Shown piece by piece: positions 2,617 through 51,059 of a DNA stretch of 64,000 nt. A model generated the notes under the pieces. The model saw only the letters and a list, made by a program, of their open reading frames with translations. It was not told the origin of the DNA and made no database searches. The stretch is from Phycisphaeraceae bacterium (lineage in GTDB: Bacteria > Planctomycetota > Phycisphaerae > Phycisphaerales > Zrk34). Location: assembly GCA_028282805.1 (NCBI GenBank), contig JANQHD010000023.1:186001-250000 (forward strand). Reading direction: 5' to 3'. The position numbers and the translations under genes are program-made. Numbering within the stretch: position 1 is the stretch's first letter; every line of letters begins with the position of its first letter.

Positions 2617-4425
2617 ATGCGCAAGCTAATCACGCCTAATGCGATCGCGTTGCTCTTCATCGCGGCTTTGCCGCTCAGCGCCGATCAATCACAAATCGTC
2701 AAACAGGTCACCGAAGCCGTGCGCGCCTACCACGACGGCGCGGCCGACAACGGCAACGTGTTGCGCGTGATTTACTTCACGCCCGCCGACGTCGAACCGC
2801 AGGCGGACCACGAGGCGCGGCTCGGCCGGGTCATGCTCGACATGCAGGCGTTCTACCGCGACGAGATGAAACGCCTCGGCTTCGGCGACGCCGTGTTCCC
2901 GCTGGAGTTAAGCGACGGCAAGCTGAAGGTCCACCTCGTGCGCGGCAAAGACGACCACACCCAATACAAGCACGAGTCCGGCGGCAAGACCGTGCGCGAG
3001 ATCCGTGCGGCGCTCGGCGATACCGTCGACCTCGACCACGAACACGTGCTCATCTTCCACGGCATGTGCACCAAGCGCGACGACGGCAGCTACTTCCTCT
3101 ACGCCCCGTACTACGGCGACGCCAGCTCCAACCACGTCCGCGGCCTGTGCCACGCCGCCGACTGCGAGATGCTCGACCCGCAATTGCTGGGCGTCACCGA
3201 CCGGCGCGTGAGGTACGTCGAACACTACGGCAAGTTCGACCAGAAGCTCGGCGAGTTCAACACCAAATACCTCGGCGGCGTCGCGCACGAGATGGGTCAC
3301 GGCCTGGGCCTGCCGCATAACAGCCAGACGCCACAAGAGCGCCGCGAGCTCGGCACCGCGCTGATGGGCGCGGGCAACCACACCTACCGCAACGAGAAGC
3401 GCGGTGGCAAGGGCAGCTTCCTCACGCTCGCCACCGCCGTGCGCCTCGCGTCGCACCCGCTGTTCACCCACAGCAACCGTGGCCGCGCCGACGCCGTGAG
3501 CTGCGAGTTGAAAGACCTGCGGTTCACCCACGACGGCCCGACGCTGAAGGTGGCCGGCAAGGTCGACGCGTCGCCCGGTGCGTACGCCGTGATCGCGTAC
3601 AACGACCCCGACGGCCGCAGCGACTACGACGCACGCACCGCTGTGGCCGTGGTGAAAGACGGCGCGTTCGAACTGAGCTCGCCCTGTTGGACGAAGGGCC
3701 ACCACGACTGGCGGCTGACGGTCTGCCACCTCAACGGCGCGACCAGCACGTTCCGCTTCAAGTTCAACGCCAACGACAAGCACGAGCCCGACGCCGGCTA
3801 CCTCAGCGCGCAGTGGCTCCGCCGGGGCCCCGAAGAGGCGATGCGCAGCGGCGAAACGCAACGCGCCGTGCAACTGGCCAACGCGTTGCTGGAGCGTGAC
3901 GACCTGCCGCCACTCGTACAGCAACAGATGCGGCACTTGCTGTGGCTTGTCATGAACACGAGCGAGCCCGTCCGCCCGATCGATGCCAAGGGCGACACGG
4001 TGCACGTCTCCGACCTCGAATGGAAGTCGGCGAAGGTCGGGTGGGGCGAGCCGGTGACCGACCGTTATCATTTCGACCGGCGCAACCGCAACCCGGTGTT
4101 CCTCGAGATCGACAAGCGGTTCTACCCCAAGGGCCTGTACGCGCACGCCCCGTCGCGTTACGTGTTCGAGCTGGGCAAGGCTTACAAACGATTCACCGCC
4201 ATCGGCGGCCTGCAAGACGGCCACGCCGACATCGGCACGTCGGTGTTCATCGTGAAAGCCGACGGCAAGGAGCTGTACCGCTCCGATGTGCTCAAGGGGC
4301 GCACCACCTGCAAGATCGACGTGGCGGTCGAGGGCGTCGAACAGCTCGAACTGATCGTCGAATCCGGCAAGCAGGGCAACGCGCACTGCTGGTCGGTGTG
4401 GGGCGCGCCGACGCTGCACCGTTAA
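2617..4425 (+). CDS. secreted zinc metallopeptidase with C-terminal NPCBM domain
   Basis: A 602-residue exported protein with an N-terminal signal peptide (MRKLITPNAIALLFIAALPLSA). The zinc-binding motif HEMGHGLGLPH at residues 224-234 has the HExxHxxGxxH metzincin pattern. After a central region of unknown fold, the last ~140 residues (from VSDLEWKSAKVGWGEP) look like an NPCBM/NEW2 carbohydrate-binding module, including GLYAHAPSRYVFELG and the terminal CWSVWGAP. This suggests proteolysis of glycoproteins or action at polysaccharide surfaces (inference). The start follows an AAAGAGG ribosome-binding site at 2604-2610. The gene meets the glycosidase tail to tail, with the two stop codons sharing the tetranucleotide TTAA. 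Confidence 0.85.
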   Translation: MRKLITPNAIALLFIAALPLSADQSQIVKQVTEAVRAYHDGAADNGNVLRVIYFTPADVEPQADHEARLGRVMLDMQAFYRDEMKRLGFGDAVFPLELSDGKLKVHLVRGKDDHTQYKHESGGKTVREIRAALGDTVDLDHEHVLIFHGMCTKRDDGSYFLYAPYYGDASSNHVRGLCHAADCEMLDPQLLGVTDRRVRYVEHYGKFDQKLGEFNTKYLGGVAHEMGHGLGLPHNSQTPQERRELGTALMGAGNHTYRNEKRGGKGSFLTLATAVRLASHPLFTHSNRGRADAVSCELKDLRFTHDGPTLKVAGKVDASPGAYAVIAYNDPDGRSDYDARTAVAVVKDGAFELSSPCWTKGHHDWRLTVCHLNGATSTFRFKFNANDKHEPDAGYLSAQWLRRGPEEAMRSGETQRAVQLANALLERDDLPPLVQQQMRHLLWLVMNTSEPVRPIDAKGDTVHVSDLEWKSAKVGWGEPVTDRYHFDRRNRNPVFLEIDKRFYPKGLYAHAPSRYVFELGKAYKRFTAIGGLQDGHADIGTSVFIVKADGKELYRSDVLKGRTTCKIDVAVEGVEQLELIVESGKQGNAHCWSVWGAPTLHR

Positions 4426-17219: not shown

Positions 17220-17493
17220 ATTCTAAAGTTCTTAAGAACTTTAGAACATTCTGCCCACGATCGGTCACCTTGTGTCGCACGGCGGTGCCTTCGTGGCGTT
17301 TGATGACCAGGCCCGCTACGGCCAAGCGGTTCAAGTGCGCCGAGGCGGTCTTGACGTTGATGCGAAGCCGAACGGCCACCTCAAGCACCGACAGTTCGGG
17401 CGACTTGTCGAGCAGGGCCATGATCTGGATCCGCCGGTGATTCGAAAAGCCTCGCACCATCCGCTCGAGGACCTTATACGGTTTCATCGCCAT
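17218..17493 (-). CDS. small winged-helix transcriptional regulator (ArsR-like)
   Basis: 91 residues forming one winged helix-turn-helix domain. RGFSNHRRIQIMALLDKSP is the start typical of ArsR-like dimers, LSVLEVAVRLRINVKTASAHLNRL the HTH, and GLVIKRHEGTAVRHKVTDRG the wing. No metal-binding cysteines are present, so the signal is unknown. AAGGGG lies six bases before the ATG. Copies of one palindrome lie at both ends: one 38 to 67 bases upstream of the start, the other forming the last codons (LKFLRTLE). Autoregulation through the upstream copy is a reasonable inference. Confidence 0.8.
   Translation of the reverse strand: MAMKPYKVLERMVRGFSNHRRIQIMALLDKSPELSVLEVAVRLRINVKTASAHLNRLAVAGLVIKRHEGTAVRHKVTDRGQNVLKFLRTLE
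17221..17246. repeat. palindrome family A, copy 1 (inside 3' end of regulator gene)
   Basis: Perfect 26-bp palindrome with half-site TTCTAAAGTTCTT. It encodes the last codons of the winged-helix gene and follows the glycosyltransferase terminator. The same element recurs at 17531, 40080 and 51032. Confidence 0.9.
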
Positions 17494-17530: not shown

Positions 17531-17560
17531 TATTCTAATGTTCTTAAGAACTTTAGAATA
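17531..17560. repeat. palindrome family A, copy 2 (upstream of regulator gene, candidate operator)
   Basis: 30-bp palindrome with one mismatched base pair; half-site TATTCTAAWGTTCTT. On the minus strand it ends 37 bases before the regulator ATG and includes or abuts AT-rich hexamers (TAGAAT, AATAAT) that could be a -10 box. The position fits an autoregulatory operator. Binding is inferred, not shown. Confidence 0.75.
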
Positions 17561-30704: not shown

Positions 30705-32978
30705 TCACTTCAGGTGTTTGTTGACCAGTTCCTTGAGCTGGGCCTGGGTCGTGACGCCGACCTTGGTCGCGACTTCCTTGCCGCCGAGGTAGACCTTGGT
30801 GACGGGGACGGTCTGGATGGCCTGCGACTCGACGGTGACGTCGGCCTTGTCGACGTCGACGGAGGCGAAGCGGGCCTTGCCGTTGAACTGCGCGGAGACG
30901 GCGAGGTGGGTCTTGGCCTGTTTCTTGGCGTTGGTCGACCAGCTCGCCCAGTAGAGCACGACGGTGGGTTGGTCGTTTCGGCCGATGGCGTCGGCGAAGG
31001 CGTCGTCGTCGAGCGCGGTGACCGCGCCTTCACCGACGGCGGGAGCGGGCGCCGCGTCGGTATGGTCCCCGGCGGCGTCGGGTTGCAGCTCGTCGCCCTC
31101 CACCTCGTGGGTGTCGACGGGCATGGGCTGGACCGGCGGCGCGGGGGCGTTGGGTTGCATGCCGCCCATGGCCATCGCCCGCATGTTGAAACCGAACGTG
31201 ACGGACTGCTTGATCGTCTGCAAGGGCACGTCGACGCTCAGGCCCAGCGCGCTGTCTTTCTGCGACCCGCTGAAAGCGATCGGCGGCATGTCGGGCACGG
31301 CGGGCAGCGCCAGGCCCTGCATGCCTTGTTGCGCCATCACCTTGCTCATCATGGTCATGACCATCTGCAGGTAACCGCCGACGTTGAAGTAAGCCTCGGC
31401 GAAGCGGTCGCCGGGCAACCTCTTGCGGGCCGCGGCGATCGCGGCGTGGGACGTGAGCTTGCCCGAGCCGTCGGACGCCTTGACGATCTTGCTGAACAGC
31501 GCCTTGCCGCCGCCCTGTGCGCCGATCATCGTGTTGCCCTTGACGCCCAGGTACGTCGTCTGGTCCATCATCGCCAGGATCGAGGCGGGCATCATCGCCA
31601 TCTCGGCCGCGGCGTCGTCGGGCGGGACGATCTTGACCTTCAAGATGTCCACGGTCACACCGTCGATCTGCTCGGCCTCTTCCTTGTAAACCACGCTCAG
31701 GCCCGGCGCGTCGTCGTCCTGCGCCTTGGCCAGCTCCAGGACCCGCTCCAGGCCCCGGGTGATCTGCTTCAGCGCCTTGCGCTGCTTGGTCATGTACGCG
31801 CCGGGGTCGTCGAGCTCATAAACGTAGCCCATCCGCACCGGCGATTCGGTGTCGTTGGTCGGCAGGTACCACGCGAACTCGCTGTTCTTAACGTGTTGCG
31901 TCGCGTCGATCGAGGCGACGTAGCCGCGCACCAGGTCGCCGACCGGGCTGTCGGCCGGGATCTTCGGCACGATGTCTTCTTCGATCGCCTTGATCAGCGG
32001 CTCAACGGGGATCTGTTGCATATTGAACGCGCCGGCGATCATGAAGTTCTCGTTCGGCAGCCGGTCGAGCGAGAGCTCGCCGCTCGGGCTCTGGGCGAAC
32101 ATCTTGCCCAGCTGCGTGTCGGGCTTGAACTGCGCGGCGACGTTGAGCTTGACGCCCGCCTTGCTCAAGTCCAGCGAGGCGACCGCCGCGTCGGTCTCGG
32201 TCAGCGTGGTGTGCACGGCCGACTCGACCATCTGCACGATCGCCTTGACGCTCTCCACGCCGCCGATGATCTCCAGTTCGGCGTCGCCTGCGTTGTGGTC
32301 GAGTTCTTCCTCGAACTCGGCGAAGCCCTCCTTGACCAGCTCCGAAAGCGCCGGGCCGAAGTTCGCGACGTTGACGTACGCGAAGATCTGGCCCTCGGCC
32401 ATGTTGGCCCGGCCGAGCGTGCCGGCCTTCTTCAGCAGGGCGGCGGGGTCCTTCGCCTGTTTCGCCGAGGCCGGGCCCCTGGCGTTGGGGCCGAGCACCA
32501 GGTATTTGCCCATGACCTTGTAATAGACCCGCCCGGCGCCCTGCACGCGCGTCTCGAACATGCCCTCCTCGCCCTCGACCGCCTCGGCCTTCTCCTTAAA
32601 CGCCGCGGTGATCTTCGCCTCGTCGGCGATGGGCAGCAAGAAGTAAAACACCGGGTCGTCGCCGTCCATGGCGGCCTTGAGGTCGCTGACCACCATCGCC
32701 GCCGAGCCGTTCTCGTCGATGCCGTCCATGATGCCCACCTGCATGAACAGCATGTTCAGCGGTTTTTCCATCGGCGGGATCGGCAGCGGCAGCTGAAGGT
32801 CCTTGATGAACTGGGCCGCGGCCTTGTTCGCCTCGGCGATGCTCGGCACGACGATGACAATGTCGCTCTTCTCGTCGACCAGCGACAGCACGTCCGACGC
32901 CTTGTTCTGCGCCATGAGGCCCGACGCCAGCACCAGCAGCGCGGCCAACCCTGTGAATACGCTTCGTGTTAACTTCAT
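30705..32978 (-). CDS. large secreted protein with C-terminal cysteine-less thioredoxin-like domain
   Basis: 757 residues: signal peptide (SVFTGLAALLVLASGLMAQ), a long region of unknown family (FIKDLQLPLPIPPMEKPLN, MIAGAFNMQQIPVEPLIKAI), a Pro-rich linker near residue 640, and a final ~90 residues like thioredoxin. These read PTVVLYWASWSTNAKKQAKT, RFASVDVDKADV, TVPVTKVYLGGKEV. The usual WCxxC is replaced by WSTNAK, so no disulfide chemistry is expected; the domain may be a binding module. GAGGAGG precedes the start. The large domain resembles planctomycete proteins annotated only as hypothetical. Confidence 0.78.
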   Translation of the reverse strand: MKLTRSVFTGLAALLVLASGLMAQNKASDVLSLVDEKSDIVIVVPSIAEANKAAAQFIKDLQLPLPIPPMEKPLNMLFMQVGIMDGIDENGSAAMVVSDLKAAMDGDDPVFYFLLPIADEAKITAAFKEKAEAVEGEEGMFETRVQGAGRVYYKVMGKYLVLGPNARGPASAKQAKDPAALLKKAGTLGRANMAEGQIFAYVNVANFGPALSELVKEGFAEFEEELDHNAGDAELEIIGGVESVKAIVQMVESAVHTTLTETDAAVASLDLSKAGVKLNVAAQFKPDTQLGKMFAQSPSGELSLDRLPNENFMIAGAFNMQQIPVEPLIKAIEEDIVPKIPADSPVGDLVRGYVASIDATQHVKNSEFAWYLPTNDTESPVRMGYVYELDDPGAYMTKQRKALKQITRGLERVLELAKAQDDDAPGLSVVYKEEAEQIDGVTVDILKVKIVPPDDAAAEMAMMPASILAMMDQTTYLGVKGNTMIGAQGGGKALFSKIVKASDGSGKLTSHAAIAAARKRLPGDRFAEAYFNVGGYLQMVMTMMSKVMAQQGMQGLALPAVPDMPPIAFSGSQKDSALGLSVDVPLQTIKQSVTFGFNMRAMAMGGMQPNAPAPPVQPMPVDTHEVEGDELQPDAAGDHTDAAPAPAVGEGAVTALDDDAFADAIGRNDQPTVVLYWASWSTNAKKQAKTHLAVSAQFNGKARFASVDVDKADVTVESQAIQTVPVTKVYLGGKEVATKVGVTTQAQLKELVNKHLK

Positions 32979-33117
32979 GACGATTCCTCCTCTCGGATCG
33001 GACGTGTGCCGCACCGACCGAGTGTTAAGTTCCGAACTGGCATGCTATTGTAACAGCACCCATCGTTTCGTTTTTGCTCGACGAGCCGACTTTCTACGCA
33101 GGATTGCGACCCACGCC

Positions 33118-33747
33118 ATGCCCCTACGCGTGCTCATCACCGCCGGCCCGACCCACGAACCGATCGACCGGGTTCGCTACATCGCCAACCGTTCGAGTGG
33201 CGCGATGGGCCTGGCGCTGGCCGCCGCCGCACGCGACGCCGGGTGCGACGTGACGCTGCTGCTCGGCCCGGTCGCCGGCGATCCGCCCACGGGCATAACA
33301 ACCCTGCCCTACAGTTCGTCAAAAGATTTGACGTCGCAACTGGACCACTGTTTCAGCGGTTGTGACGTTTTAATCATGGCCGCGGCCGTCGCCGACTACC
33401 GCCCGAAGACCTACGCCGACGGCAAGCTGCCCCGCACCACCAACGCCATGACCCTCGAGCTCGAGCCCGTGCCCGACCTCGTCGCCCGCTGCGCCGCCGG
33501 CAAACGCCCCGACCAGCGCATCATCGGCTTCGCCCTCGAAGAGCCACAGGTGTTACGGAAGCGCGCCACCGAAAAGCTCAAACGCAAGGGCCTCGACGCC
33601 ATCGTCGCCAACCCGCTGGCGACCATGGGCGCCGCCGACATCGACGCCACGCTGATTTGCGCCAACGGCGACACCCTCACCCCCGGCCCGTTGCCCAAGG
33701 CCGACTTCGCGAAATGGTTGGTGGGTTGGATTTCGGGAACGGGTTAA
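33118..33747 (+). CDS. coaB: stand-alone phosphopantothenate-cysteine ligase (CoaB)
   Basis: 209 residues matching the C-terminal half of CoaBC: LITAGPTHEPIDRVRYIANRS, GAMGLALAAAARDAG, the central MAAAVADYRPKTYADGKLPR and IIGFALEE. It joins cysteine to 4'-phosphopantothenate in coenzyme A synthesis. The fused CoaC decarboxylase half is absent, so that activity must come from a separate gene, as in some bacteria and eukaryotes. Its stop codon lies inside the left arm of a long inverted repeat. Confidence 0.88.
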   Translation: MPLRVLITAGPTHEPIDRVRYIANRSSGAMGLALAAAARDAGCDVTLLLGPVAGDPPTGITTLPYSSSKDLTSQLDHCFSGCDVLIMAAAVADYRPKTYADGKLPRTTNAMTLELEPVPDLVARCAAGKRPDQRIIGFALEEPQVLRKRATEKLKRKGLDAIVANPLATMGAADIDATLICANGDTLTPGPLPKADFAKWLVGWISGTG

Positions 33748-33975
33748 CCACAGAGGCACAGAGACACAGAGGTTTTTTGTGTTTCGTTTAGCCGCGACCC
33801 GCAGGGGAGCGCGGTTGTACGCCACAAGCCAACAGGCATCAGCCAATAGACCCACGCAAGTTCTTGGTGGTTCGATGGTTGGTTTGCTTGATGGCAATTG
33901 AAAGTACGCGCTCCCCTAGCGGGTCGCGGCTAAACACAAAAAACCTCTGTGTCTCTGTGCCTCTGTGGTTAACCC
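33741..33975. repeat. long inverted repeat spanning the coaB-trmB gap
   Basis: Two arms of about 70 bases (33741-33812 and 33907-33975) enclose some 95 bases. The first 44 bases of each arm are exact complements, beginning GGGTTAACCACAGAGG. The inner part, with TAGCCGCGACCCGC and GGGGAGCGCG words, differs by a 4-base insertion and one further difference. Each outer end contains the stop codon of the adjacent gene in GTTAAC. In RNA this would be a very stable hairpin usable as a two-way terminator. Confidence 0.92.
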
Positions 33976-34643
33976 TTCTTCTTCAACGACAGCGCATTAA
34001 ACGGCCGGCCTTCGCGGCGGTACTTGCGTTCGAAGTTGGTGCCGACGACCTCGCCGTCGCCGGCGGTGGTGGGGCGCTCAAACGGTAAACGCTCGAACAC
34101 GTCGGCGACCTGCGCGACGTGGTCCTCGATCCACGCGAAGTAGTCGTCGTGGTCGGTGACGATCCGCACGAAACCGTCGGCGACCAACACGCGGTGCAGC
34201 TCGCGCAGCAGCGGCGCCTGGATCAACCGGCGCTTGTGGTGGCGGGTCTTCGGCCAAGGGTCGGGGAAGTAGATGTGCACCTGGCGGAACAGCGCATCGG
34301 GGCAGTACCACTTGACGAACACGGTCGCGTCGTAGGCGAGCATGCGCACGTGGTCGAGGCCGTGGCGGCGCAACCGGTCGGCGGCGTAGCGGGCGAACTG
34401 GCCGGCGTACTCGATGCCGAGGTAGTTGATGTGGGGGGTGTCGGTGGCCTGTTGCACGAGGAACGTGCCTTTGCCCGAGCCGATCTCGAGCTCGAAGGGC
34501 AGCGCGCGGCGGTCTTCGGGCCACCACTGGCGGATGTCGAACCGCGTGTCGCGTGGCGCATCGCCGATGGGCGGCAGGTCGTCGGGCCCGATGCCGATGA
34601 CGCCGGTGTCCAGCGCGCGGCCGCGTGCGGGTTTGATGCTCAT
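33969..34643 (-). CDS. trmB: tRNA (guanine-N7)-methyltransferase
   Basis: 224 residues; methylates G46 in the variable loop of tRNAs using S-adenosylmethionine. Motifs: LEIGSGKGTFLVQQA for SAM binding, GIEYAGQFARYAADR, and the family-specific IYFPDPWPKTRHHKRRL. The C-terminal NFERKYRREGRP matches the usual substrate-binding TxFE-K end. Its stop codon is formed by the right arm of the inverted repeat shared with coaB. Confidence 0.94.
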   Translation of the reverse strand: MSIKPARGRALDTGVIGIGPDDLPPIGDAPRDTRFDIRQWWPEDRRALPFELEIGSGKGTFLVQQATDTPHINYLGIEYAGQFARYAADRLRRHGLDHVRMLAYDATVFVKWYCPDALFRQVHIYFPDPWPKTRHHKRRLIQAPLLRELHRVLVADGFVRIVTDHDDYFAWIEDHVAQVADVFERLPFERPTTAGDGEVVGTNFERKYRREGRPFNALSLKKKG

Positions 34644-40079: not shown

Positions 40080-40129
40080 GCGCCTCTGTTATTCTAATGT
40101 TCTTAAGAACATTAGAATAACAGAGGCGC
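40080..40129. repeat. palindrome family A, copy 3 (50-bp perfect palindrome)
   Basis: The core with half-site TTCTAATGTTCTT is extended by a matching GCGCCTCTGTTA on each side to make 50 bases that are exactly self-complementary. It begins 11 bases after the prepilin stop codon (minus strand), so its transcript could form a loop-free 25-bp stem. Confidence 0.92.
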
Positions 40130-51031: not shown

Positions 51032-51059
51032 ATTCTAAAGTTCTTAAGAACATTAGAAT
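51032..51059. repeat. palindrome family A, copy 4
   Basis: 28 bases with half-site ATTCTAAAGTTCTT and one mismatched central pair. It lies 49 bases beyond the stop codon of the GspF gene and about 200 bases upstream of the C39-like gene, both on the minus strand. Confidence 0.88.

Follow-up and report, generated by a model that had tools for sequence, protein, structure and literature searches.

In the 64,000-nucleotide stretch of DNA analysed here (the window), a coaB-like gene carrying the C-terminal domain of DNA/pantothenate flavoprotein (32803-33747, + strand, with a provisional start; PF04127, DFP) converges on a trmB-like methyltransferase gene (33969-34643, - strand; PF02390). A long inverted repeat, already noted in a preliminary description of this DNA, extends from one stop codon to the other. 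An inverted-repeat search assigned it outer arms of 44 nt each, 100% complementary and 147 nt apart, the right arm (33932-33975, - strand) being the exact reverse complement of the left arm (33741-33784, + strand). Each arm is made of an end, GGGTTAAC, followed by three iterons, which read CACAGAG at 33749-33755, 33757-33763 and 33765-33771 on the left and CTCTGTG at 33945, 33953 and 33961 on the right. As had also been described, both stop codons lie within the GGGTTAAC ends, the TAA of coaB at 33745-33747 (+ strand) and that of trmB at 33969-33971 (- strand), and the inner segments differ by small indels: their GTTTAGCCGCGACCCGC words align after a 5-nt indel, which is followed by indels of 1-3 nt. 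The inner arms proper (33786-33807 and 33914-33935) are 22 nt long and 91% complementary. GGTTAACC occurs at both ends of the copy, but it is palindromic and lies within the arm.

The predicted RNA fold of 33735-33980 reaches -175.7 kcal/mol (z -19.7), a value equalled by none of 200 shuffles, and that of the other strand -166.4 kcal/mol (z -17.2). The arm word of the window gave four matches at up to three mismatches, against 0.15 expected. The fold and this excess indicate that the inverted repeat is not a product of chance. The window holds two further exact inverted repeats of at least 20 nt within 400 bp, at 17.2-17.5 kb and 40.1 kb, which are of different sequence. Separately, we observed a 26-nt near-perfect palindrome, TTCTAANGTTCTTNAGAACNTTAGAA, at 17221-17246, 17533-17558, 40092-40117 and 51033-51058 of the window. 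It has about 30 sites in the genome to which the window belongs (G000, 3.9 Mb) when two mismatches are allowed (30 matches per strand), against none for the reversed control, and a small ORF flanked by two of its copies, at about 17.25-17.5 kb, resembles a helix-turn-helix regulator by eye. This palindrome is a candidate operator, or else another palindromic repeat.

Nested within the outer arms is a pair of REP-like modules. The left one, GTTTAGCCGCGACCCGCAGGGGAGCGCG, was found by core-word search at 33786-33813 (+ strand), and its inverted copy, located by the same search and by alignment, at 33907-33935 (- strand), so that the two form a REPIN-like pair around a spacer at 33814-33906. Since the words at both places are REP-like, we regard the window copy as a hairpin-only element whose loop contains a REP pair. 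The spacer belongs to a composite shared with three other places in the genome (L036, L043 and L039), which follow the same plan and whose aligned bases are 80-86% identical to the window copy over the whole elements; two of these three carry one outer arm only. The word GCCGCGACCCGNNGGGGAGCG occurs at 28 places in G000 (20 exact, 8 with one mismatch), single or as inverted pairs, and the inner module accordingly shows both the two inverted REPs and the single copies that characterize REPINs. REPs flanking a RAYT gene were found in relatives only: in G001 (C339) and G006 (C117), Y1_Tnp matches have REP words on either side. Two side observations were made near REP words. At L056 (711-1229) in G000, a 172-aa ORF situated some 170 nt away from a REP word resembles an HUH transposase by eye (SWHAH motif), and it had no hit in Pfam or PHROGs. 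At L055, L060, L062 and L069, tandem repeats of the CCGGAATCCGGAGT type adjoin REP words between genes and form another intergenic repeat family.

In G000, the pattern CACAGAGRCACAGAG with up to two mismatches gave 61 matches (42 exact) against 29 for the reversed pattern, and the stricter CCRCRRAGRCRCRRAG gave 44 against 1. From this genome 18 stretches were fetched and 14 read, L045-L048 being left out as two-mismatch matches taken for chance. Gene contexts were read from the ORF table and the sequences rather than from an annotation, because the codon caller misassigned several of these loci, including L042 and L033. Two inverted arms were present at thirteen places, counting the window copy: eight lie between co-directional genes (L031, L032, both places in L033, L034, L036, L040, L042), three between convergent genes (window, L037, L038) and one between divergent genes (L041), and one is undecided (L039). 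One-armed places were seen at L035, L043 and a second site in L039; L044, a diverged case, was left out of the count. When the positions of the arms were tabulated against stop codons, the stop coincided exactly with TTAACC or TAACC at 9 of the 14 gene ends that face the twelve decided copies. The proposal of an element kept at convergent gene ends thus stands as to the element and the stops close by, but its preference for convergent ends does not, eight of thirteen copies being co-directional. Nor is placement restricted to gene ends, as some copies lie upstream of genes and some in divergent regions. Among 31 hairpin-only copies in three relatives, a crude gene caller placed 20 between co-directional, 7 between divergent and 4 between convergent genes. 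The same caller, pooling these relatives with G000, gave median distances of 9 nt to a stop and 64.5 nt to a start, with some large outliers. No verified case of a copy inside a gene was met, one of the 31 copies in relatives (L301) being flagged as inside by the crude caller.

One of the two places in L033 turned out to be a coding version of the element. Between hisC and hisB (3040-3466), the arms enclose a 122-aa ORF of the GxxExxY family (TIGR04256, 140.1 bits against a cut-off of 35; PF13366, 134.7 against 22), that is, a predicted PD-(D/E)XK nuclease gene in a span of 427 nt. This junction and four others were compared with their counterparts in relatives, first of all in a genome of the same genus (G001), which belongs to a species with 73-82% identity over the aligned DNA. 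There, the coaB|trmB junction is empty, with the stops 21 nt apart and nothing recognisable between them; the C-terminus of CoaB has the length seen in the window, and the stop is TGA. The same convergent pair, without the window element, is found in G003-G007 with gaps of 353, 30, 83, 74 and 216 nt, the gap in G006 containing an arm-like word by eye. The hisD|hisC junction is empty in G001 (stop/start overlap) and G007 (19 nt); G000 has a hairpin of about 80 nt there, and G006 a complete GxxExxY element whose arms are different. At hisC|hisB, the GxxExxY gene is present in G000 and G006 and frameshifted in G001; an arm-like remnant without the gene is left in G003, and the junction is free of the element in G005 (12 nt), G007 (54 nt) and G008 (24 nt), the hisC stop of G008 being supplied by a single REP-like word. 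The geneX|rsmD junction is empty in G001 (TGA plus 6 nt, with the same C-terminus as in G000) and holds a different hairpin in G006. The nusB-like|ftsY junction of G001 is empty as well (18 nt), so that four of the five junctions compared are empty in this genome; for the L042 junction no homologue was found in G001. As judged from the aligned sequences, the elements occupy gene junctions that are empty in relatives, though loss in G001 is possible, the empty sites coming from a species at this degree of divergence. We also observed, at geneX|rsmD in G008 (L317), a ACAGGATTAACAGGATG repeat with its inverted counterpart; its presence where G000 and G006 carry different hairpins suggests a recurrent insertion spot.

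We weighed the possibility that the host retains the hairpin at gene ends as a bidirectional terminator, the function proposed in the preliminary description, or as a structure protecting mRNA. The very stable folds of the two strands and the position of the window copy exactly between two convergent stops would suit such a role. Yet no terminator-like site was found between 33500 and 34200 (no GC-rich stem followed by a T run, against a shuffle mean of 0.9, in a scan allowing only loops of 3-8 nt), and Rfam offered, as a structured RNA, only a weak Mcr7 match (17.9 bits against a gathering score of 380). Co-directional copies outnumber convergent ones and include those at the his-operon and nusB-like|ftsY junctions; copies inside tight operons such as hisD-hisC-hisB disfavour a terminator, as an efficient one would be expected to silence the downstream genes. 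Moreover, homologous junctions in relatives do without the hairpin. We therefore consider this explanation improbable, and the reading of the window hairpin as a convergent-gene terminator is not supported and was rejected as the main one.

The association of arms with GxxExxY genes was then assessed at 80 GxxExxY loci from named genomes, the best of 116 relatives found. Inverted arms (alignment score of at least 14) bracket the gene at 59 of these 80 loci, against 3 of 794 shifted windows, and inverted pairs of iterons flank it on both sides at 53 of 80 loci, against 1 of 794 control windows; pairs in the opposite orientation were found at 5 of 80. Fifty-seven of the 59 armed loci, including two archaeal ones (Methanobacteriota), could be placed by name in 16 phyla. 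In an independent set of related genomes, represented by one locus each, arms were present at 25 of 29 loci against 1 of 110 controls, and three of the four misses have cut-off flanks. No inverted repeat was scored at 21 of the 80 loci, and a few of the scored repeats, such as those of L145 and L158, do not consist of iterons. The elements span 431-781 bp (median 519; at most 670 in 54 of 59), and since the GxxExxY gene takes up about 360 bp of this, there is little space for a second gene.

The arms obey a common grammar, YTYAC-CRCNNAG-n-CRCNNAG-nn-CRCNNAG, with a single base usually separating the first unit from the second and two bases the second from the third (49 of 90 three-unit arms), while the units themselves differ among elements (CGCAGAG, CACAGAG, CACGGAG, CACGAAG, CACTAAG and others). 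Identity between arms averages 0.87 within an element and 0.62 between elements (n = 47), the best of 10,000 permutations giving about 0.70 and none exceeding 0.71. Similarity of the proteins tracks similarity of the arms (Mantel rho 0.35, p 0.0005, n = 33). The window arms have the grammar of these terminal inverted repeats, their end reading TTAAC, a variant of the YTYAC end that was tallied at four ends. The window copy measures 235 nt in total and holds the nested REP pair and no GxxExxY gene between its arms, which makes it a hairpin-only derivative. Like a MITE, it is short, non-coding and bounded by terminal inverted repeats; its coding relative in G000 does not encode a transposase as that of a MITE would, the 427-nt span leaving no room for one. 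No common target-site duplication was seen by eye in the own-genome and GxxExxY elements inspected. The window feature is best read as a non-autonomous, MITE-like derivative of a GxxExxY element.

Arms of this kind could also arise in place, an 8-nt unit undergoing local slippage and template switching, with no mobility involved. Quasi-palindrome correction leaves tandem iterons and perfect arms, and this is the trace that the tandem iterons and the perfect 44-nt arms of the window would represent. Such a local process does not account, however, for one iteron grammar bracketing a single gene family across many phyla, nor for the recurrence of whole hairpins across one genome: G057 contains eight of about 175 bp, separately located and 83-93% alike, and a more distant ninth one. 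We regard a purely local origin as very improbable. In the same genome (L271-L283), hairpins with CACGAAG arms were observed nested within outer CGCCAAG iteron arms, from which it appears that one iteron hairpin can insert into another or grow around it.

A tree of GxxExxY proteins (77 loci and the query) mixes phyla, requiring 31 changes where the least possible number is 17 and the shuffled mean 49.8, and Planctomycetota do not group together in it more than expected by chance (a value as low in 85 of 500 shuffles); this tree rests on a short protein, and 30 of its 74 inner branches are open. A phage source was considered and rejected, as no GxxExxY match was obtained at E 1e-5 in 50,697 phage records and none in PHROGs; among plasmid records, 8 of 72,556 have a match. 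Two further observations concern individual loci. L121 and L122 have an identical protein and identical printed flanks in two bins, one of Methanothrix and one of Paceibacterota, from seemingly related samples, which is likely to reflect contamination of one of them. At L164, L166, L169 and L170, in four genomes of two families, GxxExxY elements lie between what seem to be the same two genes, the downstream one being dnaJ by eye; this shared site may represent either old inheritance or a hot spot.

Residues D67, E76 and K78 are invariant in 51 GxxExxY sequences, and the protein is a predicted PD-(D/E)XK nuclease with intact D..ExK residues. Its AlphaFold2 model (pLDDT 95) found its best PDB match in the Cas4 protein SSO0001 (Foldseek E 2.5e-3; VIA Z 9.4, rmsd 3.1 over 97 residues). 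The next matches were to exonuclease, restriction-type and resolvase folds, all at Z below 8, and may reflect only a common arrangement. By sequence, no solved relative was found at E up to 1. Cas4 carries an iron-sulphur cluster, of which GxxExxY gives no sign, no cysteine being found among its invariant and nearly invariant columns. The protein was also tried as a defence gene and rejected as such, PADLOC returning only weak Cas4 models (E 0.0095 and 0.019).

The GxxExxY gene has a preferred orientation with respect to its neighbours. When genes were called by ORF length, 23 elements between co-directional genes were on the same strand as these and none on the opposite one, shared sites being counted once. 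A codon model applied to 52 non-duplicate armed loci gave 39 same-strand, 2 opposite, 2 convergent, 3 divergent and 6 incomplete cases; for the 21 loci without arms it gave 7, 2, 5, 0 and 7, respectively. In relatives, leaving out L168, whose left neighbour was not callable, the 24 decided loci comprised 19 same-strand, no opposite, 5 convergent and no divergent cases, or 16, 0, 5 and 0 of 21 when one recurrent site was counted once. The 5' neighbour of GxxExxY was co-directional at 44 of 49 called loci of the broad set, the other five elements not lying downstream of a co-directional gene, and at all 24 in relatives. The upstream stop is at a median of 13 nt from the element edge (28 values in the broad set). 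A ribosome-binding-like 4-mer before an in-frame start was seen near the gene at 44 of 73 loci, sometimes inside the arm, in a count made without a control. As the gene usually lies directly 3' of a co-directional host gene, it is, on this arrangement, probably transcribed by read-through from that gene.

Co-occurrence was followed in 61 genomes of the order, GxxExxY being scored as present at a match of at least 100 bits, a cut of our own. The arm pattern had 706 matches in these genomes against 23 for the reversed pattern. The median number of arm words, to which full elements add their own, was 15 in the 31 genomes with GxxExxY and 0 in the 30 others (p 1.5e-8), and at least five arm words were found in 24 of 31 against 2 of 30. 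With the family's own cut-off, the latter figures became 25 of 38 and 1 of 23 (p 3.4e-6); both p values are too small, because the 61 genomes are related. There are exceptions on both sides: G003 and G022 lack a 100-bit match yet show 12 and 10 arm words, and in G013 and G040 the gene is present but arm words are absent. From the association we infer that GxxExxY drives the movement.

The movement could instead be due to an HUH transposase of the Y1/RAYT type, which would move the arms as single-stranded-DNA hairpins, with GxxExxY travelling as cargo or as an addictive passenger. Hairpin movement by HUH systems leaves no target duplications, and none was seen at the present elements either. 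The window copy contains nested REP modules, and Y1 transposase matches are common, occurring in 45 of the 61 genomes and in 29 of the 31 with GxxExxY. Because of this last overlap, the 61 genomes separate the two candidate movers poorly. Nevertheless, in the 30 genomes without a 100-bit GxxExxY match, Y1 made no difference, at least five arm words being found in 1 of 16 genomes with Y1 (G003) and 1 of 14 without. Furthermore, GxxExxY fills the space between the arms, and the sequences of protein and arms covary. We consider an HUH mover unlikely, while giving it more weight than the other alternatives.

Our favoured explanation, which we hold to be probable, regards the window feature as a non-autonomous copy of a mobile arm-GxxExxY-arm element, whose nuclease moves arm-bounded DNA into gene junctions. 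GxxExxY would recognise the arms, either as duplex iterons or as the hairpin or cruciform that they form, and cut, whereupon the arm-bounded DNA would be copied or moved into gene junctions. It would act in cis for its own element and in trans for hairpins, its gene riding on read-through transcription from the upstream host gene. The window copy would have come to lie at the abutting ends of coaB and trmB, its TTAACC ends supplying both TAA stops, and no host function would be needed. More tentatively, and with slightly less than even confidence, we propose that these elements form a new class of mobile DNA: transposase-free, starting at about 430 bp, and relying on a single PD-(D/E)XK nuclease of about 120 aa to move DNA bounded by iteron arms, in cis as well as in trans, into junctions of mostly co-directional genes across Bacteria and Archaea, with stops kept or supplied.

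The name GxxExxY states only a motif, and the family's own inverted repeats give it a testable role, while the widespread hairpin repeats of environmental genomes gain a probable source in GxxExxY elements. We know of no case in which an enzyme of the PD-(D/E)XK class transposes by itself. If the nuclease alone drives movement, the element would be a very small autonomous one, near the lower size limit for self-moving DNA, and would act as a natural system for inserting DNA into intergenic gaps. The junctions compared also illustrate how the ends of genes and the spacers of operons are rewritten, stops and spacers in conserved operons such as his changing state between neighbouring genera. The open-access literature of PubMed Central yielded no description of the association between GxxExxY and the arms, one being possible in subscription papers or on bioRxiv, and no relevant paper on the arm words; the open-access papers found to name GxxExxY do so in passages that do not deal with mobility.

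Several known systems resemble these elements in part. The fold of GxxExxY is, by model comparison, like that of the PD-(D/E)XK nucleases Cas4 and lambda exonuclease, but the protein has only about 120 aa and its gene lies inside its own repeat-bounded element. REPs and REPINs, with their RAYT (HUH) genes, are likewise short hairpin repeats at gene ends that often supply the stop codon of an ORF, and their non-autonomous copies are tied to a gene for a mobility protein, as is proposed for the window case. One report states that GTAG REP ends often give flanking ORFs a TAG stop (PMC3733652). Unlike REPs beside an HUH gene, the outer arms of the window type are three-unit iterons that bracket a PD-(D/E)XK nuclease gene, and their ends are devoid of a GTAG or CGTC tag. 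MITEs share with the window copy a short, non-coding nature, many copies and terminal inverted repeats common to a longer coding relative, but here that relative has no known transposase and no consistent target-site duplication was seen by eye. Finally, homing endonuclease genes resemble the GxxExxY element in that a lone nuclease gene makes up a compact selfish unit; the GxxExxY elements differ from them by their inverted iteron arms, their many unrelated target junctions per genome and their hairpin-only copies, which, to our knowledge, are not features of homing.
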